From positions 1 through 24,589 of IMG/VR virus record IMGVR_UViG_3300046467_001486: a stretch of 24,589 bases of DNA; one strand, 5' to 3'. The position numbers were made by a program, and so were the translations under genes. Source of the DNA: a virus. The notes under the pieces are model-generated. The model worked only from the letters and a program-made list of their open reading frames with translations. It ran no database searches and was not told where the DNA came from. Below are positions 1,226 to 20,143 of this stretch, one piece after another (the first letter of the stretch is position 1; each line of letters begins with the position of its first letter).

Positions 1226-2227
1226 TCAATTTATCCCCATGCTTTCGTTGGTTTTTTTTATGCTGTCCTCTTGCCCACAGTGACGCATGGATGATCTTAT
1301 AGCGTCGATAGTTTCTGGGACAACATCGCTTTCCTGATGAACAGCTTGAAGATAAAATAGCTTGTTTCCCCAAACCCCAACCCCCTCATCCCACACACAC
1401 ACTTCTGGCATGTCTCCTCTAGACCTGCCTATATCCTTGGCGTACTCTATAATTTCTGCTGTAGACCTGATCCCGTCTGAATTTTTTACGACGCGAACTC
1501 TCGTGGTGTTTTCTAGCAGGTCTAAGACATCTTCTGCTGTTGCAGGGTTTCTAAGATCGACGGTCAGGCTGTGCATGTGCATGATGGTTGTGGGAACATG
1601 TACCGATGTGGTAAAAACTGTAAAATCAGGAAGAACTGTGCGGACATCTGGGCCATGATGGGATGGTAGCTCTAACGCGGGAACGATTGCGTTTATTGGG
1701 CCGTGATAAATATCCCAAGGGTCTGCTGCCCGTCTAATCATAGTTGCATGAACGTTGTCTATCCCGTACTCCTCGTGTACGGCGTGTAGGGTTCGGCAAA
1801 GACCCGTGGTGTTGCAGCTTACCACTCTTATGTAATCTTCACCAAATACCTCGCCATAGTTGCACTGAGCCACAAAGCTGGCCCCTATTTCTGGTTTTTC
1901 TCCCCCTTGAAAGACGGCCTTAACTTTATGCTCAGTGTATTTGCGTTTGTTCTTTTTGCCGACGCCCTTGGGGGTGCAATCACATACTATATCGCATTCC
2001 TCCAGAAGGTCTGTTATTTTCCCAGACAGGCAGACCCCATTCCTTTTTAGATCCGTTCCAAGGTGGTCAGCCGAGAAAATGTTTATCCCTTTATTTATGG
2101 CAGACTTTATCCGGTAATTAAACGTGTTCCCGGCTATGCCAACCAACTCCATATCGTCTTGCAAAAGAGTGGTGTCGGCAACCCTCTTGCCTATCGTCCC
2201 GTACCCTACAACGCCGACCTTAATCAC
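1226..2227 (-). CDS. Type II (archaeal-type) glyceraldehyde-3-phosphate dehydrogenase
   Basis: The 333-residue protein matches the archaeal-type GAPDH family, which oxidises glyceraldehyde 3-phosphate to 1,3-bisphosphoglycerate with NAD(P). Visible features are the N-terminal Rossmann motif GYGTIGKRVA (residues 8-17), the CTPKGVG nucleotide-site segment (about 84-90), the catalytic Cys138 in SCNTTGLCR, and the later VPTTIMHMHSL segment typical of archaeal enzymes. Length is normal for the family. The start is GTG at 2227, sharing GTGA with the upstream stop and preceded by AAGGG. It is the last gene of the long metabolic run. Bacterial type I GAPDH has a different active-site sequence (SCTTNC-like), so this is not a copy of the usual bacterial gap gene. 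Family call is secure; cofactor preference and role during infection are unknown. Confidence 0.93.
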   Translation of the reverse strand: MIKVGVVGYGTIGKRVADTTLLQDDMELVGIAGNTFNYRIKSAINKGINIFSADHLGTDLKRNGVCLSGKITDLLEECDIVCDCTPKGVGKKNKRKYTEHKVKAVFQGGEKPEIGASFVAQCNYGEVFGEDYIRVVSCNTTGLCRTLHAVHEEYGIDNVHATMIRRAADPWDIYHGPINAIVPALELPSHHGPDVRTVLPDFTVFTTSVHVPTTIMHMHSLTVDLRNPATAEDVLDLLENTTRVRVVKNSDGIRSTAEIIEYAKDIGRSRGDMPEVCVWDEGVGVWGNKLFYLQAVHQESDVVPETIDAIRSSMRHCGQEDSIKKTNESMGIN

Positions 2228-4205: not shown

Positions 4206-5279
4206 CTATCTCCTTAGTACAAAAGTCGCGCACTTGGGAAGGTCTTTCAATGTTGGTGCTCCCACATATGCACAGGCACTCCTAATGCCACCCGCTACCT
4301 CCTGTAGCACGTTTTCAACTGGCCCCTTATACGGGACGCTTTTAATTATACCTTCTGAGGCTCTATAAGACCCCACGCCGCCGTTATGCTTGTCCATGGC
4401 AGCCTCGCTAGACATGCCATAGAACTTCAAGGATTTCTTCTTGTTCGGCGTCGAAGAAACCCCCCTCTCAATTCTCATGCCACACGGAGCATGTGTCCAG
4501 CCCTCATATTCCCACTCACCTTCACATTCTTCGGTTCCAGCCAGCATTCCACCCAGCATAACGAAATCTGCTCCAGCCGCAAATGCTTTGACGACATCTC
4601 CCGGTTCCTTACAGCCACCATCGGCACAGATAAGACCGCCTATTCCATGGGCGGCGTCAGCACATTCAATAATAGCCGACAACTGTGGGTATCCACATCC
4701 GGTTATTCTTCTGGTGGAACACACGCTTCCCGGCCCAATTCCTATCTTAATTATATCTGCTCCACCACTGATAAGCAATTCACTTACCATCTCTGGTGTA
4801 CAGACATTACCTGCCATGATAACGGCGTCGGGGAAAAACTCCCTGCATCGTTTAACGTGGTCAACAAATACTTTCTGGTATCCATTAGCTACATCAATAC
4901 ATATCTTGTGTATTGGGTTTTCAGGAAGCATATCGTCAACAGTTAGTAATTTATCGACATCCTCTTGTTTGATACCAATAGTAAAGAAAGTGTCCAGTCT
5001 AGGTGCTTCGGTAAAGAAGTCTACTAACTCGGCTACATTATAGTACTTATGTAGACAGGTTTGCATGCCTTTTGGGCCAAGCTTTTCAGCCATAGCCATA
5101 GTTCCCACTGTGTCCATATTAGCGGCTACAATAGGAACAACAGCCTCTTTGACTGGAGCGTGAAGATAGCTATAGCTCTTTTCAATGCTCACTCCAGATC
5201 TACTAGTAAGAGTAGACCGCTTGGGCTTGATAAGAACATCGTCGAAGTCTAATTTAATTCCATCCGCTATAATAGCCAT
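4206..5279 (-). CDS. guaC: GMP reductase
   Basis: This 357-residue TIM-barrel enzyme should convert GMP to IMP and ammonia using NADPH. It matches GuaC rather than IMP dehydrogenase: no CBS domains, length near the 346 or so usual for GuaC, the catalytic loop GPGSVCSTRRITGCGYPQL with Cys187, the phosphate-site ADGGCKEPGDV and FVMLGGMLAGTEE, and the FYGMSSEAAMDKHNGGVGSYRASEG region. In infection it would return host GMP to the IMP pool, and so towards adenine nucleotides. It follows the acyl-CoA dehydrogenase by 9 bases and precedes the nucleotidyltransferase by 4. I am sure of the family. Confidence 0.92.
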   Translation of the reverse strand: MAIIADGIKLDFDDVLIKPKRSTLTSRSGVSIEKSYSYLHAPVKEAVVPIVAANMDTVGTMAMAEKLGPKGMQTCLHKYYNVAELVDFFTEAPRLDTFFTIGIKQEDVDKLLTVDDMLPENPIHKICIDVANGYQKVFVDHVKRCREFFPDAVIMAGNVCTPEMVSELLISGGADIIKIGIGPGSVCSTRRITGCGYPQLSAIIECADAAHGIGGLICADGGCKEPGDVVKAFAAGADFVMLGGMLAGTEECEGEWEYEGWTHAPCGMRIERGVSSTPNKKKSLKFYGMSSEAAMDKHNGGVGSYRASEGIIKSVPYKGPVENVLQEVAGGIRSACAYVGAPTLKDLPKCATFVLRR

Positions 5280-5288
5280 CCTAAATCC

Positions 5289-7139
5289 TTAATCGTCATA
5301 TCTCATAAGTATAGAATCATACACGCTTCCATCTTGGGGGTTTGCTAGAGTTTTACCAAGAGATACACTCTTTCTAATTTGTAAATCTGTCGGGTGACTG
5401 CCTGTTATTTTATTTTTTAGGTTCTCACAAGATACATCTGCTATCGTAGCCATCAATGGATCTGCTTTAGCAAATACATAGCAAACTGTAGCCATCATGG
5501 TTAGAAGATGTTGTATTCTTCGAGAAAGAATAGACATCCTACATTGCTTATCCGCTAACCCTAGTTGGTATTTACGCATAAGACCACTAATTTCCAAAGC
5601 GGATCGTTGAAGACCTTGAATGGCGTAGTTCGCGTGATCTACTATATTACTATTGAATCCTATTGGGCGAATCCCCTTCTTGGGAAGCATAGCTTCTTTG
5701 ATTAGCCATTCGGCATAAGGCGTGAATGTTTTATAGTTCTTTATTATGTCTACAGGACTTAAGCTCTTCTTGCCTAGACCGGACATTAACTTCCCAACAG
5801 GTTCAAAAAAGGTGGAGCCATGATCTTTGACCAGACTTTTAAAGAAAGCCATGTTGAGCATATCTCCCTCCCCCTCATAAATCAAAGGGGCTAGGATATC
5901 GTAGATGTTGTCTCCGATAATATGACCGCCAAGAAAAGACCTTCCACCGTGGGTTTTCATGCACAGGTCGATGGCTGCTTCTTTCTGGCATTCTGATCCG
6001 AATGTTTTTGCTATGATGCATTCCAACTCTCCACGATAACCTTTATCTATAAGTCCAGAACACCAAGCAACAAGAGCGTCTGAAGAAAGTATATATCCCG
6101 CAAGCCTAGCAATCCGCTCCTGTACTAGCTCTCTATTCTTAATCGGCTGGCCGTATGTTGATCTATAGCTAGCCCAAGGGATCATAGAATGTAACATCGT
6201 CTTCATGCAACCCGATGCGTTAGCGCACAGAGAAATCCTGCCCAAGTTCAACCCATGATACGCTACAGTTAGGCCATCACCCCTGTCCAACTGTATTAGG
6301 TTTTCTTTGGGAACTCTGTGGTTCGTGAATATCAGTGAATTGTTATTCAGTCTTGCGAGTGCATGAATTTTATAGTGCCCAATGCTAAATGTGTCAGTAT
6401 CACCGTCAGGAATCTCCACTAACAACACTTGAGGCTTATTATCTATCTGGCATACAACAGAAACAAGCCCCCCATAGTAAACATTTGTAATGAACAACTT
6501 AGTGCCATTCAAAACATAGTCGTCTCCGTCTATTTTAGCACACGTCTTCAACGCTGTCAAGTCCGATCCCGCGCAAGGTTCGGTCAAAGCAAAAGCAGAC
6601 AGAAAGGTTCCATCAGATAAACCCGGCAAATACTTTTCCTTTTGAAGCTCATTTCCAAATGCTCTAACGGGGTCTACTGATCCTATGCAGCCATGGATCG
6701 AACACATACCAGCTACGCTAGGTTCAATCCTAGCCATCTCTGTAAGAAAGGAGGAGAACTCTGAAAAAGATAACGCTGGTTTATTTGGTAGAGGAACTAG
6801 TAGGCCAAAATACCCACCGTCTGCTAACGCAGTAATTAATTCGCCACTTAACTTACCGTTATCGTACAGCCTGCCTTCACTCTTAAACTGCTTTACAATA
6901 TTAAGACAGTTGCTTAGCATAGCAGAGTTGGGTCTGTGAAAATCAAACTCAAAGAAATCCCTAGTAGGAAACTCTCGGTTCCATACAGCTTTAAATGATG
7001 GGCTATTCTTAGTTTGATGCTTATCATCAAACAGTTCCTCCACCTGATCGTCTGCTACATCTACCTTTCCTATACTGGTAGACTCTGCTGCGGTCTTACC
7101 GCTTAACTCCATCGCTGTCTCGGCAAAAGACTTTGCCAT
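5289..7139 (-). CDS. Acyl-CoA dehydrogenase, long VLCAD/ACAD9-like form
   Basis: The 616-residue flavoprotein should introduce the trans-2 double bond into an acyl-CoA, passing electrons to ETF. Visible parts are an N-terminal helical domain (about 70-180), the beta-domain signature FALTEPCAGSDL (183-194) with GTKLFITN (212-219), and the C-terminal helical domain with THGGRSFLGG (396-405) and YEGEGDML. Glu422 there matches the catalytic Glu that is usually in an E-G-T/S-N/E context. A further 170 or so residues resemble the C-terminal extension of VLCAD/ACAD9-type enzymes. RBS is AGAGGGGA before ATG 7139, and the hydratase stop lies 2 bases upstream, so the two are coupled. No ETF genes are visible. 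Chain-length preference is unknown. Confidence 0.92.
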   Translation of the reverse strand: MAKSFAETAMELSGKTAAESTSIGKVDVADDQVEELFDDKHQTKNSPSFKAVWNREFPTRDFFEFDFHRPNSAMLSNCLNIVKQFKSEGRLYDNGKLSGELITALADGGYFGLLVPLPNKPALSFSEFSSFLTEMARIEPSVAGMCSIHGCIGSVDPVRAFGNELQKEKYLPGLSDGTFLSAFALTEPCAGSDLTALKTCAKIDGDDYVLNGTKLFITNVYYGGLVSVVCQIDNKPQVLLVEIPDGDTDTFSIGHYKIHALARLNNNSLIFTNHRVPKENLIQLDRGDGLTVAYHGLNLGRISLCANASGCMKTMLHSMIPWASYRSTYGQPIKNRELVQERIARLAGYILSSDALVAWCSGLIDKGYRGELECIIAKTFGSECQKEAAIDLCMKTHGGRSFLGGHIIGDNIYDILAPLIYEGEGDMLNMAFFKSLVKDHGSTFFEPVGKLMSGLGKKSLSPVDIIKNYKTFTPYAEWLIKEAMLPKKGIRPIGFNSNIVDHANYAIQGLQRSALEISGLMRKYQLGLADKQCRMSILSRRIQHLLTMMATVCYVFAKADPLMATIADVSCENLKNKITGSHPTDLQIRKSVSLGKTLANPQDGSVYDSILMRYDD

Positions 7140-7141
7140 TT

Positions 7142-8110
7142 TTATCCCCTCTCACCGTTTAAAAATTTATTAACTAGCTCCCTGCATTTTTCACTTTTGA
7201 CCAACCTCACAAAAGTCTCCCGCTCTAGTTTCAGCGACTCGTCCCTGTATAAAGTTCTGCCTTTTCTCAGAACTTCTAACGCCTCATAAGGGGAAGGGTA
7301 TGCGTGAGGATCGCCAAACATTTTCTTTTGCTTTCTACCAATTGTACGCCTGACAATCGGATAGGTTATGTTGGCTCTCAGCTTGCCTAGCTTGGTGGGT
7401 CCAATCTTGCTGTTTCTTATATTGGACCACTCCAGCATCTCATCATTATTAAAGCTATAGATGAGATTATACGCCGAGTCTAATATTTTGTGTCTCTCTA
7501 CTACGTCGTCTACTAGGCCGACTCGTAGAGCTTCTTGCTGTTTAATATTTCTACCAGTGCAAATAAGCTCGATAGCCTTGGTTGGGTAAATTATCCTCGG
7601 TAGTCTTGTTGTTCCGCCCCAAGCGGGGAGTATGCCCAGTTTTACTTCGGGGAGGGATAATTTGTTAAGTTGAAAGACATTATACTTTGGGTTTTCTGGA
7701 ATAGGGTCTTTAACGAGAAGTCTGGATGTACAAGCCAAGGCTAACTCAAGACCTCCTCCCATGGCAATGCCATTTATGATAGCCACACTGGGAATGGGCA
7801 AGTCTTCAAGCCTGTTAAACAAGCTCTGCCCCCTCTCAACAAACCCGTCTATGACCGAGCTTGGAGAATCGTGAGCCTTGGCTATATCTTTTATATTAGC
7901 ACCTACTATAAAAACGGGTTTGCCGCTTTTAATAACCAGACCTCGATACCCTCCCGCCTCAACTAAGGAGAGTAGAACCTCAAATTCGTCAAGAGTTTGG
8001 GTGTCAAAGAAGTTGTATGGTCTTTTTTGGTGATTAAAGACGATGTGATAGATACCCTTATGGGTATACCCCTCAAAATTACCCAATACTACTCCATTAA
8101 GCAGCATCAT
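7142..8110 (-). CDS. Enoyl-CoA hydratase homologous to the N-terminal half of FadJ/FadB
   Basis: A 322-residue crotonase-fold protein that should hydrate trans-2-enoyl-CoA, the step after the neighbouring acyl-CoA dehydrogenase. It follows the multifunctional FadJ/FadB/HADHA alpha subunit: IKSGKPVFIVGANI, PIPSVAIINGIAMGGGLELALAC with Glu122, LPEVKLGILPAWGGTTRLPR with Glu155 (the two catalytic glutamates), and TGRNIKQQEALRVGLVDDVV. The last 100 or so residues match the linker that in FadJ leads into the 3-hydroxyacyl-CoA dehydrogenase domain, but the protein stops there, with no second Rossmann domain. Start at ATG 8110 (AGGA, spacer 7) is preferred to TTG 8125. Confidence 0.88.
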   Translation of the reverse strand: MMLLNGVVLGNFEGYTHKGIYHIVFNHQKRPYNFFDTQTLDEFEVLLSLVEAGGYRGLVIKSGKPVFIVGANIKDIAKAHDSPSSVIDGFVERGQSLFNRLEDLPIPSVAIINGIAMGGGLELALACTSRLLVKDPIPENPKYNVFQLNKLSLPEVKLGILPAWGGTTRLPRIIYPTKAIELICTGRNIKQQEALRVGLVDDVVERHKILDSAYNLIYSFNNDEMLEWSNIRNSKIGPTKLGKLRANITYPIVRRTIGRKQKKMFGDPHAYPSPYEALEVLRKGRTLYRDESLKLERETFVRLVKSEKCRELVNKFLNGERG

Positions 8111-8131
8111 GCTCAATCCTCGCAAGTAGTC

Positions 8132-9270: not shown

Positions 9271-9298
9271 ATTATACACTATCCCTTCTTCCTGTTAG
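9271..9298 (-). promoter_or_regulatory. Sigma70-like promoter for the small membrane protein cluster
   Basis: Perfect -10 TATAAT (9271-9276) overlapping the stop of the oxygenase gene, a 16-base spacer, and a -35 CTAACA (9293-9298) matching four of six consensus positions. The downstream gene starts about 42 bases later. It may also drive the metabolic genes beyond, since I see no terminator in between. Confidence 0.55.
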
Positions 9299-9889
9299 TA
9301 TAAAAGCGTCCATATGGGCGGGTTCTTCCTTATTTACTGGAACAATTGCTTTTGCGCTGTGCCATAATTCTCTGTCATCAATAATGACAAAGACTCCCGG
9401 TTCTAGACTCTGGCTAAAAAATGGGTATCCTACCTTGTCTGAAAACAACAGGGCTTCCCCACCTAAGACATTAACCCTGTTGATACTAAATATCCCCACA
9501 GCGTCAAATCCATCCTGATGGACTCCTTCCGGTGATACCGGCACAGCTTTTTCATGAGTGGAGATTCTCATTTGATGAGCCTCAACCTCTTCGTGGTGTA
9601 AGTCGGCAATATTCCTGAATAGGTTGACTGCGTGTGTGAAGCCCTCACTAAAAAAAACATGGTCCTCTATTGGGTCAAACTTGCGAGTGGCGTCTCCCTG
9701 ATATTTATTAAAATCTGACGACTGTGTAAATTCTGTGTTTTCTAGTTTGTCTCCATAGGCCCCAGCTACTGAATAGCGTCTGAGCCTAAAAGCGCCGTCC
9801 TTGTGGGCTGTGTGGGGCAGGTCTTCAAAGCTGGGTTGTAAATGCCTTACAAATTCCTCCGGTAGCTCGTCTAAGATTAGTTTATGCAC
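9272..9889 (-). CDS. 2-oxoglutarate-Fe(II) dioxygenase family protein (PF10014-like)
   Basis: The 205-residue protein matches the 2OG-Fe oxygenase group that includes free amino acid hydroxylases such as isoleucine dioxygenase. Key parts are VSPEGVHQDGFDAVGIFSINR with the His124-x-Asp126 iron ligands, NVLGGEALLF, PGVFVIIDDRELWHSAKAI with the distal His177, and a late Arg (GRR, about 200-201) that would bind 2-oxoglutarate. GTG 9889 is the start, with AAGGAGG 7 bases upstream, 2 bases after the VOC gene's stop. Family assignment is good; the substrate (free amino acid, nucleotide or protein) is not known. Confidence 0.85.
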   Translation of the reverse strand: MHKLILDELPEEFVRHLQPSFEDLPHTAHKDGAFRLRRYSVAGAYGDKLENTEFTQSSDFNKYQGDATRKFDPIEDHVFFSEGFTHAVNLFRNIADLHHEEVEAHQMRISTHEKAVPVSPEGVHQDGFDAVGIFSINRVNVLGGEALLFSDKVGYPFFSQSLEPGVFVIIDDRELWHSAKAIVPVNKEEPAHMDAFILTGRRDSV

Positions 9890-9891
9890 TT

Positions 9892-10386
9892 CTAATCCTC
9901 CTTAGTGGATTCCATTAGTTTTTTCACAGAGTTCTGACAGAACCCTTTGTCTCCACGCTCTATAAGTTCGATAATAACTCCCCCCGTTTCCTCTAGGGGC
10001 TTAGTAAAAATTTGCCTCAGTTTATCGTCTGGGCAATCAATAACACCATCTGATAGAAATTCTACCCCAGCTTCTCTCCACTCGTCAACAACTTCTTCTA
10101 TATTTTTTACCCTGTAGGCTATATGATGTATCCCGCCGTTCCCACGCTCATTAACCCAATCGTCTACAATAGAGCCGGGGCTACCCTCGGAGATAAAAAT
10201 CTCTGGGCCATCATGCACAAGGGTGACAGGGACAAGGGGCGAGACTAGGGCATAACATTCAGCAACCGAGCCGTCGTCAAACTCTACGTCAAACTCAGCC
10301 CCAACAGTGTACCCAAACATCCTCTGGAAAAATGAAGCAGATTTGTGTCTATCTTTTACTCTGTAGGCTATGTGATCTAAGTTCAT
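9892..10386 (-). CDS. VOC-family dioxygenase/isomerase-like protein, close to HPPD C-terminal module
   Basis: The 164-residue protein has two betaalphabetabetabeta modules (MNLDHIAYRV and GGIHHIAYRV) giving candidate metal ligands His5, His87/88 and Glu140 (VIIELIER). The ending QIFTKPLEETGGVIIELIERGDKGF resembles the iron-site end of 4-hydroxyphenylpyruvate dioxygenase, while the overall size is like methylmalonyl-CoA epimerase or glyoxalase. It may be a compact VOC dioxygenase; epimerase activity is the main alternative and would fit the acyl-CoA genes. Start ATG 10386 has AGGAGGG at spacer 5; a longer frame to 10500 would run into the upstream gene. Confidence 0.8.
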   Translation of the reverse strand: MNLDHIAYRVKDRHKSASFFQRMFGYTVGAEFDVEFDDGSVAECYALVSPLVPVTLVHDGPEIFISEGSPGSIVDDWVNERGNGGIHHIAYRVKNIEEVVDEWREAGVEFLSDGVIDCPDDKLRQIFTKPLEETGGVIIELIERGDKGFCQNSVKKLMESTKED

Positions 10387-10396
10387 ATCTACCCTC

Positions 10397-10591
10397 CTAG
10401 TCGTCGTGATGTGATCCGTCGCGGTCTTCCCCGAAGCACACCTCTTCCCAATTCTGCTTCTCCATCGCCTTGCCTTTCTTGTTAGTCCAGCAAAACGCAT
10501 TCCTCAACTGAGCCTCTGTGAGATCAAAAGACATGCCATCTGTCAGCGTGACAGTTATAGTATTGCCATCTGATACAACATGGTCTATCAT
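10397..10591 (-). CDS. Hypothetical protein (64 aa)
   Basis: Start ATG 10591 with GGAGG 7 bases upstream, overlapping the upstream stop by one base (TAATG). The sequence MIDHVVSDGNTITVTLTDGMSFDLTEAQLRNAFCW suggests a small beta-rich domain of the kind with a DUF2442-like look, followed by an acidic, His/Asp-rich tail. No confident family. Co-translated between the deaminase and the VOC protein. Confidence 0.65.
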   Translation of the reverse strand: MIDHVVSDGNTITVTLTDGMSFDLTEAQLRNAFCWTNKKGKAMEKQNWEEVCFGEDRDGSHHDD

Positions 10592-19006: not shown

Positions 19007-19215
19007 TTATTTTTCTGTTTCCTACCTTTTAAAGTATTGGATATTCCATGTATCTCTTTAGATAGCATTACGATACTCTGCTGAGATTGAATATCTACTC
19101 CATCAAACCAAGTCTGAGTAAGAGAGATCTCTGTCCCACATTCTGAGGTGTAAACTGTTGTTTCCCAGTGATGAGTGCCCATGGACTCATCGCACTTGTA
19201 TATTAATTTACCCAT
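19003..19215 (-). CDS. Hypothetical protein (70 aa)
   Basis: Starts MGKLIYKCDESMGTHHWETT and ends in a basic, Asn-rich tail (LKGRKQKNN). A beta-rich start and a helical end seem likely. RBS is weak (AAGAAGAAAAA) and the start overlaps the protease gene stop by 8 bases, so it is probably coupled. Function unknown. Confidence 0.62.
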   Translation of the reverse strand: MGKLIYKCDESMGTHHWETTVYTSECGTEISLTQTWFDGVDIQSQQSIVMLSKEIHGISNTLKGRKQKNN

Positions 19216-20143
19216 TTTTTCTTCTTAAGGGGAATGTAGGAAACTGAAGACTGTCCTTTGTAATACTTTTAGTGCCTGTCTTTTTAGTGGTTCCGCCATT
19301 ACCCTCAACTGGGAGTTCTAGTATCTCAGACAAAGTAGGCAGTTTGTGACTCTTATCAATAGCCCATGAAATATTATTTTTCGCTGCGTACTTCTTCATC
19401 CGTCTTACAGGAACTATAAAGTTGAATGTCTCTCCAGCCCCTCTAACAAGCATTCCAACGTATTGTCCAGCCTTGTCTCCTGATCTCTCGCTCAAGAAGA
19501 CTCCTCCACCGCTTGAGCCGGGGAATGCGGGAACTGTAGTCTGATCGAATACAACTCCTTCTCCCGAGCCAAGGTCTAAAACTCTACCAACGCTTGACAT
19601 TATTCCTCGCGTCATAGAATTACTTCCTACTTGGCCTAGTAGGGAGCCGACATGGTATAATTCTGTACCTATCGGCACTGGCTCTCCACTGCCGTTATAG
19701 AAATCAGTGTTGTCGGTTATAAAACTTCTCTTTCTTATCATTAATAGTGCCAAGTCTTCGCCGTTTTCGGAATCGCTATACTTAATAACCTTAGCGTACA
19801 TCACTGACTCCCCTACCTTGCGGCCAGCTTCTATATGTTCTTGTACAATCTGAGCATCCTTAAATTCTACAACAGGAACCGTTTTCCCGTTCTGTACTAC
19901 TAGTCTCACGTTACGAAGGTTGTCTATAACGTGTGCCGCCGTCCAGACAAAGTTTAATTTCTCTGTCTTGTTAGGGCCTGTTTTAACTTCCCTCGTAATA
20001 ATAACTCCAGACCCCTCACTAAATCCAGACTTAACTGTTACCGATACAGTTTGCAGTTTTTCCGAGAGGGTTGGTTCAGCAGCATTCACCTGAATTACTG
20101 AAACTAGTAAAAGAATTAGTGATAGCGAAAGTCTCTCAAGCAT
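19208..20143 (-). CDS. Secreted trypsin-like (S1/HtrA-type) serine protease
   Basis: The 311-residue protein has a Sec signal peptide (residues 1-21/22, cleavage near VNA/AEP) and a chymotrypsin-fold protease domain. The catalytic triad is visible: His71 in WTAAHVID, Asp130 in GEDLALLMI, and Ser211 in FPGSSGGGVF. No PDZ domain follows; the C-terminal 60 or so residues are Thr/Lys/Gly-rich. Start ATG 20143 has GGGAG upstream. Expected to act in the periplasm or outside the cell. Targets unknown; envelope-protein processing or host defence at the surface are possibilities. Confidence 0.88.
   Translation of the reverse strand: MLERLSLSLILLLVSVIQVNAAEPTLSEKLQTVSVTVKSGFSEGSGVIITREVKTGPNKTEKLNFVWTAAHVIDNLRNVRLVVQNGKTVPVVEFKDAQIVQEHIEAGRKVGESVMYAKVIKYSDSENGEDLALLMIRKRSFITDNTDFYNGSGEPVPIGTELYHVGSLLGQVGSNSMTRGIMSSVGRVLDLGSGEGVVFDQTTVPAFPGSSGGGVFLSERSGDKAGQYVGMLVRGAGETFNFIVPVRRMKKYAAKNNISWAIDKSHKLPTLSEILELPVEGNGGTTKKTGTKSITKDSLQFPTFPLRRKNG

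Follow-up and report, generated by a model that had tools for sequence, protein, structure and literature searches.

A hydratase gene and an acyl-CoA dehydrogenase gene lie next to each other in a phage-like fragment

The window, i.e., the whole stretch of DNA analyzed here, is a 24,589-base single contig from an IMG/VR virus record and represents a genome fragment. It carries genes for RIIA and RIIB, a dCMP deaminase and an endonuclease together with a tRNA-Arg, which makes for phage-like surroundings. On its minus strand a gene for an enoyl-CoA hydratase (ECH) is followed by one for an acyl-CoA dehydrogenase (ACAD), then, after a gap of 9 nt, by a GMP reductase gene and by a cytidylyltransferase-like gene (Table 1). 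The ECH stop codon, TAA (7144-7142), is separated from the ACAD start codon by 2 nt. Ahead of either gene there is a putative ribosome-binding site that is rich in purines. The GMP reductase scored over the cut-off of PRK05096, and relatives of it were found in all close sister phages.

Table 1. Position of the beta-oxidation genes, their putative ribosome-binding sites and other genes in the window
Feature	Position	Strand	Remarks
Enoyl-CoA hydratase, FadB alpha-subunit type (ECH domain and linker helices, without HAD)	7142..8110	-	322 aa, ATG at 8110
Putative ribosome-binding site GAGGA	8117..8121	-	6 nt before ECH ATG 8110; read from sequence
Acyl-CoA dehydrogenase, two-part architecture like VLCAD/ACAD9/FadE	5289..7139	-	616 aa, ATG at 7139
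Putative ribosome-binding site GAGAGGGG	7146..7153	-	within the 3' end of ECH, 6 nt before ACAD ATG; read from sequence
GMP reductase	4206-5279	-	directly 3' of ACAD
Type II (archaeal-type) phosphorylating GAPDH	1226-2227	-	
2OG-Fe dioxygenase (PF10014)	9272-9889	-	adjoins the VOC protein gene
Glyoxalase/VOC protein	9892-10500	-	
HtrA/trypsin-like serine protease	19208-20143	-	secreted-looking

The ECH product matched Pfam ECH_1 (6e-29); an alternative start codon, TTG at 8125, lies upstream and would give a protein of 327 aa. The AlphaFold model of ECH had a pLDDT of 91.9, and helices 243-321, which correspond to the linker, were predicted with high confidence. The protein aligned to residues 15-298 of Pseudomonas fragi FadB (1wdk) and 27-311 of Escherichia coli FadB (6tnm), i.e., the ECH domain and the linker, at about 31 to 34% identity. 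It ends at the point where the 3-hydroxyacyl-CoA dehydrogenase (HAD) half of FadB begins. The two crotonase glutamates, E122 and E155 (numbered from ATG 8110), are shared with both FadB proteins and were invariant in 21 sequences. The product is thus predicted to have a crotonase fold with both of its catalytic glutamates, followed by a linker of the FadB type. The preliminary description had taken the protein for a FadJ-like hydratase with a linker and proposed to model it against FadJ. The ECH domain and the linker were borne out, and the helices of the latter superposed on FadB. The assignment to FadJ has to be changed, since FadB was closer both in NCBIfam scores (219 versus 153 bits) and in Foldseek comparisons of the model (TM 0.88-0.89 for FadB versus 0.77-0.80 for FadJ).

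No HAD was found in the 322-aa product or elsewhere in the 24.6-kb window, which therefore lacks the fused ECH-HAD arrangement of FadB and FadJ. As the window is a fragment, this does not show that the phage is devoid of HAD.

For ACAD, the N-terminal, middle and C-terminal domains (PF02771, PF02770 and PF00441) all scored over the cut-off, with E values from 1.9e-9 to 1.2e-17. The motifs TEPCAGSD and YEGEGD are present, and in alignments with solved ACADs the YEG glutamate falls on the position of the catalytic base. This residue, Glu422, was invariant in 26 of 26 aligned phage and bacterial sequences, and TEPxAGSD and THGGR were conserved. By its sequence, the protein thus belongs to the ACAD family, with three domains, the predicted catalytic glutamate and the FAD-contact motifs. 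Its AlphaFold model (pLDDT 83.6) found human VLCAD as the best PDB match by Foldseek (E 2.5e-19, TM 0.69), and the fit to human and mouse VLCAD was moderate (TMq 0.67-0.70). A VLCAD-like helical C-terminal domain of about 180 aa is predicted. The fold, including this alpha-helical part, is common to VLCAD, ACAD9 and bacterial ACADs of about 600 aa (7s7g, 8phe, 3owa), with about 21 to 22% identity in the structural alignments. At the sequence level, solved structures matched for the most part in the ACAD core, from about residue 90 to 450. Two coupled adjacent genes for an ACAD and a hydratase without HAD, with TEPCAGSD, the YEGEGD glutamate and both hydratase glutamates kept, had already been recognized in the preliminary description, and the gap length, Pfam domains and alignments agree with that reading.

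Relatives of ACAD are present on other viral contigs

Relatives of ACAD with 60 to 90% identity were detected on nine other viral contigs, some of them beside terminase and capsid genes. On one (L005) the large terminase gene (TerL, phrog_2) is located immediately downstream of ACAD, and two others (L006 and L009) have the same ORF layout. A 161-kb contig (L002) codes for TerL (phrog_2), RIIA/RIIB, a ribonucleotide reductase and a protein of 2,908 aa that is tape-measure-like by its size. On L003, a hydratase of the window's kind is encoded away from ACAD. ACAD was found with no detected ECH, HAD or thiolase on L005-L007, L009 and L010, all of them fragments. The contigs are all uncultured and incomplete, and pattern-based scans undercount distant relatives; such absences are provisional, since a complete genome is not known for any member of the group. 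A single-sequence scan of viral contigs with short patterns missed diverged ECH copies, which were found beside or near ACAD and recovered by an alignment scan.

We considered whether the 161-kb contig might be a complete circular genome and rejected this, as its ends share only a dispersed repeat of 155 bp with 92% identity. The repeat copies, at 1-154 and 160436-160588, lie in stretches with few convincing genes. The same contig also has consecutive genes for an aldehyde dehydrogenase, a class III aminotransferase and a DDAH-like protein (L028:15852-19340), which probably serve amino-acid or polyamine catabolism.

Several candidate homologues were discarded. An ACAD with 47% identity (L132) was not counted as a phage gene: it is of planctomycete type and is located at one edge of an IMG/VR contig that also has capsid-like genes, which looks like a prophage adjoining a host ACAD on a planctomycete-type chromosome. 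Most of the INPHARED matches to both proteins carry the label Acinetobacter phage MD-2021a or Salmonella, but the records resemble bacterial chromosome. In those of Acinetobacter phage MD-2021a (CAKLQH02*/CAKLQF02*) the fad and paa genes are ordinary ones, and a search for beta-oxidation genes of phages would be misled by them. The acdA product of Microcystis phage MaAM05 is just 31% identical. A fold search of BFVD yielded ClpP/S49-type folds and a single crotonase from a giant virus, but nothing FadB-like from a phage.

The remaining pathway genes are separate or fused in related phages

Two sister phages, L002 and L004, have hydratases with 63 to 69% identity to that of the window and a separate HAD gene (340-345 aa) about 4.3 to 4.4 kb beyond ACAD. 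In alignments, the standalone HAD matches the part of FadB between about residues 315 and 681, indicating that FadB was divided at the border between linker and HAD. Standalone HAD genes were also found on two further viral contigs (L136 and L137). A HAD gene encoded close by, which the preliminary description had named as contrary to its reading, is present in the two sister phages and absent from the window.

A 60.8-kb contig (L008) harbors consecutive genes for ACAD, a fused ECH-HAD protein (652 aa) and a thiolase (392 aa). The thiolase has kept the Cys and GHP motifs expected of this enzyme. This phage looks different, with a T4-type baseplate wedge protein, and has almost nothing else in common with L002 at the protein level. 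A complete beta-oxidation operon, with ACAD, ECH, HAD and thiolase together, is thus found in L008, and the window holds the ACAD and ECH genes only. L008 was the only one of the records searched, the window included, with a thiolase (PF00108); neither acyl-CoA ligase (PF00501) nor ETF (PF01012) was detected in the records searched.

The genes are under purifying selection where synonymous divergence was measurable, with dN/dS values of 0.04-0.08 for ACAD, 0.11 for ECH and 0.16 for HAD. The split enzymes of the window's phage group differ from planctomycetal FadB by a loop insertion in ECH and a deletion in HAD. All four split ECHs have about 11 additional residues between the catalytic glutamates, which are absent from L008 and from bacteria, and a stretch of about 23 residues that would follow the second Rossmann strand is missing from all four standalone HADs. 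These changes may adapt the pieces to a separate existence, or they may shift activity or carrier preference.

The module has a single phage clade and probably a planctomycetal donor

In a tree of ACAD built from ten phage and 42 bacterial sequences, the phage proteins formed one clade (support 100) on a long stem, near Planctomycetota. The split genes and the fused L008 protein likewise grouped in one phage clade in the ECH tree (98/99) and in the HAD tree (100/100). The bacterial sequences in these two trees are only the FadBs found near the ACADs in question, so the trees test the unity of the phage proteins better than the identity of the donor. One phage clade in each of three separate trees indicates that one module entered phages and was split later. 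These clades and the nine other contigs uphold the claim of the preliminary description that the pair is phage-borne, and they exclude the two outcomes that it had named as contrary to it, a host-derived contig join and trees with both genes among host genes and no phage homologues.

The bacterial relatives of ACAD (45 to 52% identity over the full length) belong almost all to Planctomycetota or Obscuribacterales. Singulisphaera acidiphila (L051) has a cluster of the orthologous full-length ACAD, a FadB-type alpha subunit and a thiolase in the same order as L008. This order was also found in a second Singulisphaera locus (L070) and in L073 and L076, and in other Pirellulales the three genes are clustered in a different order. 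The closest FadB among 246 Planctomycetota genomes was 41% identical. The donor of the phage module was probably planctomycetal. The cellular FadB of Planctomycetota is a single fused chain of about 700-750 aa, whereas the window's phage group has ECH and HAD as separate genes. As FadB is fused in bacteria and in L008, we infer that the split went from fused to separate. The simplest history is that an ACAD-FadB-thiolase operon entered once and was transferred between phage lineages, after which FadB was split and the thiolase lost or displaced.

With a single clade, phage neighbors and purifying selection, the genes qualify as auxiliary metabolic genes (AMGs) insofar as these are host-derived metabolic genes maintained in phages. 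Genes for DUF1501 proteins (PF07394), which are abundant in Planctomycetota, are present on several of the phage contigs, such as the 161-kb one (L028:8504-9742) and L003 (15653-16900). A host in the Planctomycetota is suggested by these genes and by the ancestry of ACAD.

Comparison with known viral genes

Known phage AMGs serve mostly photosynthesis, nucleotide metabolism, the pentose-phosphate pathway and nutrient uptake. The pair is not standard in phages, as the preliminary description had supposed. Hurwitz et al. (2013) reported families of fadB and fadL genes from viromes of the Pacific Ocean (PMC4053976), so that genes for fatty-acid oxidation were already known from the viral fraction; the parts of that article considered here present them as gene families and describe neither an ACAD or thiolase nor an operon or a split FadB. 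Giant viruses encode acyl-CoA dehydrogenases, and according to a review the hydratase and thiolase steps were undetected in any of them (PMC9270025); unlike the phage module, those genes belong to viruses of eukaryotes. In phage-infected Pseudoalteromonas under low phosphate, fatty-acid degradation proteins increase and lipids decrease through host genes (PMC11170926). Viral genes for fatty-acid oxidation are not wholly new; in open-access articles we came across no previous account of an ACAD-FadB-thiolase operon in a phage or of a split phage FadB.

Proposed role of the module

Our preferred reading, which we consider probable, is that the genes form a phage-borne beta-oxidation module, taken once from a fad operon of the Planctomycetota type and diversified since, that would speed host beta-oxidation during infection. 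ACAD would convert acyl-CoA, probably long-chain, to trans-2-enoyl-CoA and pass the electrons to host ETF, and the hydratase would then form 3-hydroxyacyl-CoA. A separate phage HAD, as in the sister phages, would yield 3-ketoacyl-CoA; for the window, this enzyme may be encoded outside the fragment or supplied by the host. A thiolase from the host, or from the phage in L008, would release acetyl-CoA. The module would rely on host acyl-CoA ligase and ETF and, in its split form, on host thiolase as well. During infection, stores of host lipid or fatty acids would then likely be turned into acetyl-CoA, FADH2 and NADH more rapidly. The genes, their phage surroundings, the kept catalytic residues, the split and the common phage clade are observed in the sequences; that the enzymes are active, which chain length they take, which host they serve and which way the flux runs is deduced. 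A more specific version, which we hold tentatively, is that Planctomycetota phages carry this module of single origin either as an intact operon or split, that the lipids of infected cells are burnt to fuel phage production, and that ECH and HAD, reshaped by the 11-residue insertion and the 23-residue deletion, make up a working two-piece alpha subunit.

The enzymes might instead act on other acyl-CoAs, such as short- or branched-chain, dicarboxylic or cell-envelope acyl species, or in the biosynthetic direction. The sequence does not reveal the substrate, and the insert in all split ECHs and the segment lost from the standalone HADs would fit a changed activity. We regard this as unlikely, because the ACAD model is nearest to very-long-chain ACADs and the cellular relatives lie in ACAD-FadB-thiolase fad clusters. 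Less plausible still is a reading that takes up a possibility named in the preliminary description, namely that the pathway deliberately stops at 3-hydroxyacyl-CoA, for another product or a changed lipid composition. It would account for a hydratase that terminates exactly ahead of HAD and for a window devoid of HAD and thiolase. The window is a fragment, however, and sister phages with the same hydratase retain HAD under purifying selection; together with the standalone HADs on two more contigs and the fused ECH-HAD and thiolase of L008, they speak against it. A structural or regulatory role, e.g., metabolite sensing or moonlighting of the ACAD9 kind, in which catalysis would be secondary or lost, appears slightly more improbable again: ACAD is better conserved than the rest of the module and stands without detected partners on five contigs, but these are fragments, and the catalytic glutamate and FAD motifs are invariant in all phage copies that cover them. 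Finally, an assembly join between host and phage DNA, or a random capture from the host, can be dismissed almost entirely, since, even though the assemblies are single contigs and ACAD is clearly bacterial in origin, ten contigs share a well-supported clade of their own that includes no bacterial sequence, on a long stem, with genes under purifying selection and embedded among phage genes.

If the proposed beta-oxidation module operates in this way, prokaryotic viruses would be able to mobilize host lipid as a fuel by means of genes of their own, and this would tie in with the increased fatty-acid degradation and the loss of lipid seen in infected marine bacteria (PMC11170926). The module also points to phages of Planctomycetota, a poorly known group. 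The occurrence of fused and split FadB in related modules makes the need for the linker and for covalent fusion in the alpha subunit directly testable.

Other metabolic genes in the window and on related contigs

The GAPDH of the window scored 453 bits against an NCBIfam cut-off of 185 and is odd cargo for a phage. Both L002 (14769-15743) and L004 (14982-15956) have a gene for a class I fructose-bisphosphate aldolase and also GlmS-like genes, and a GlpX-type fructose-1,6-bisphosphatase is encoded on the L008 contig (48222-49142). The aldolase and GlpX genes hint at a gluconeogenic gene set and, together with the GAPDH and GlmS-like genes, would fit a general role in carbon rerouting.

Relatives of the 2OG-Fe dioxygenase and of the VOC protein are encoded in L004 as well as in the 161-kb contig. 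The VOC protein was tried as a methylmalonyl-CoA epimerase and rejected (50 bits versus a cut-off of 115). The serine protease shows 57 to 70% identity across four related phage contigs.
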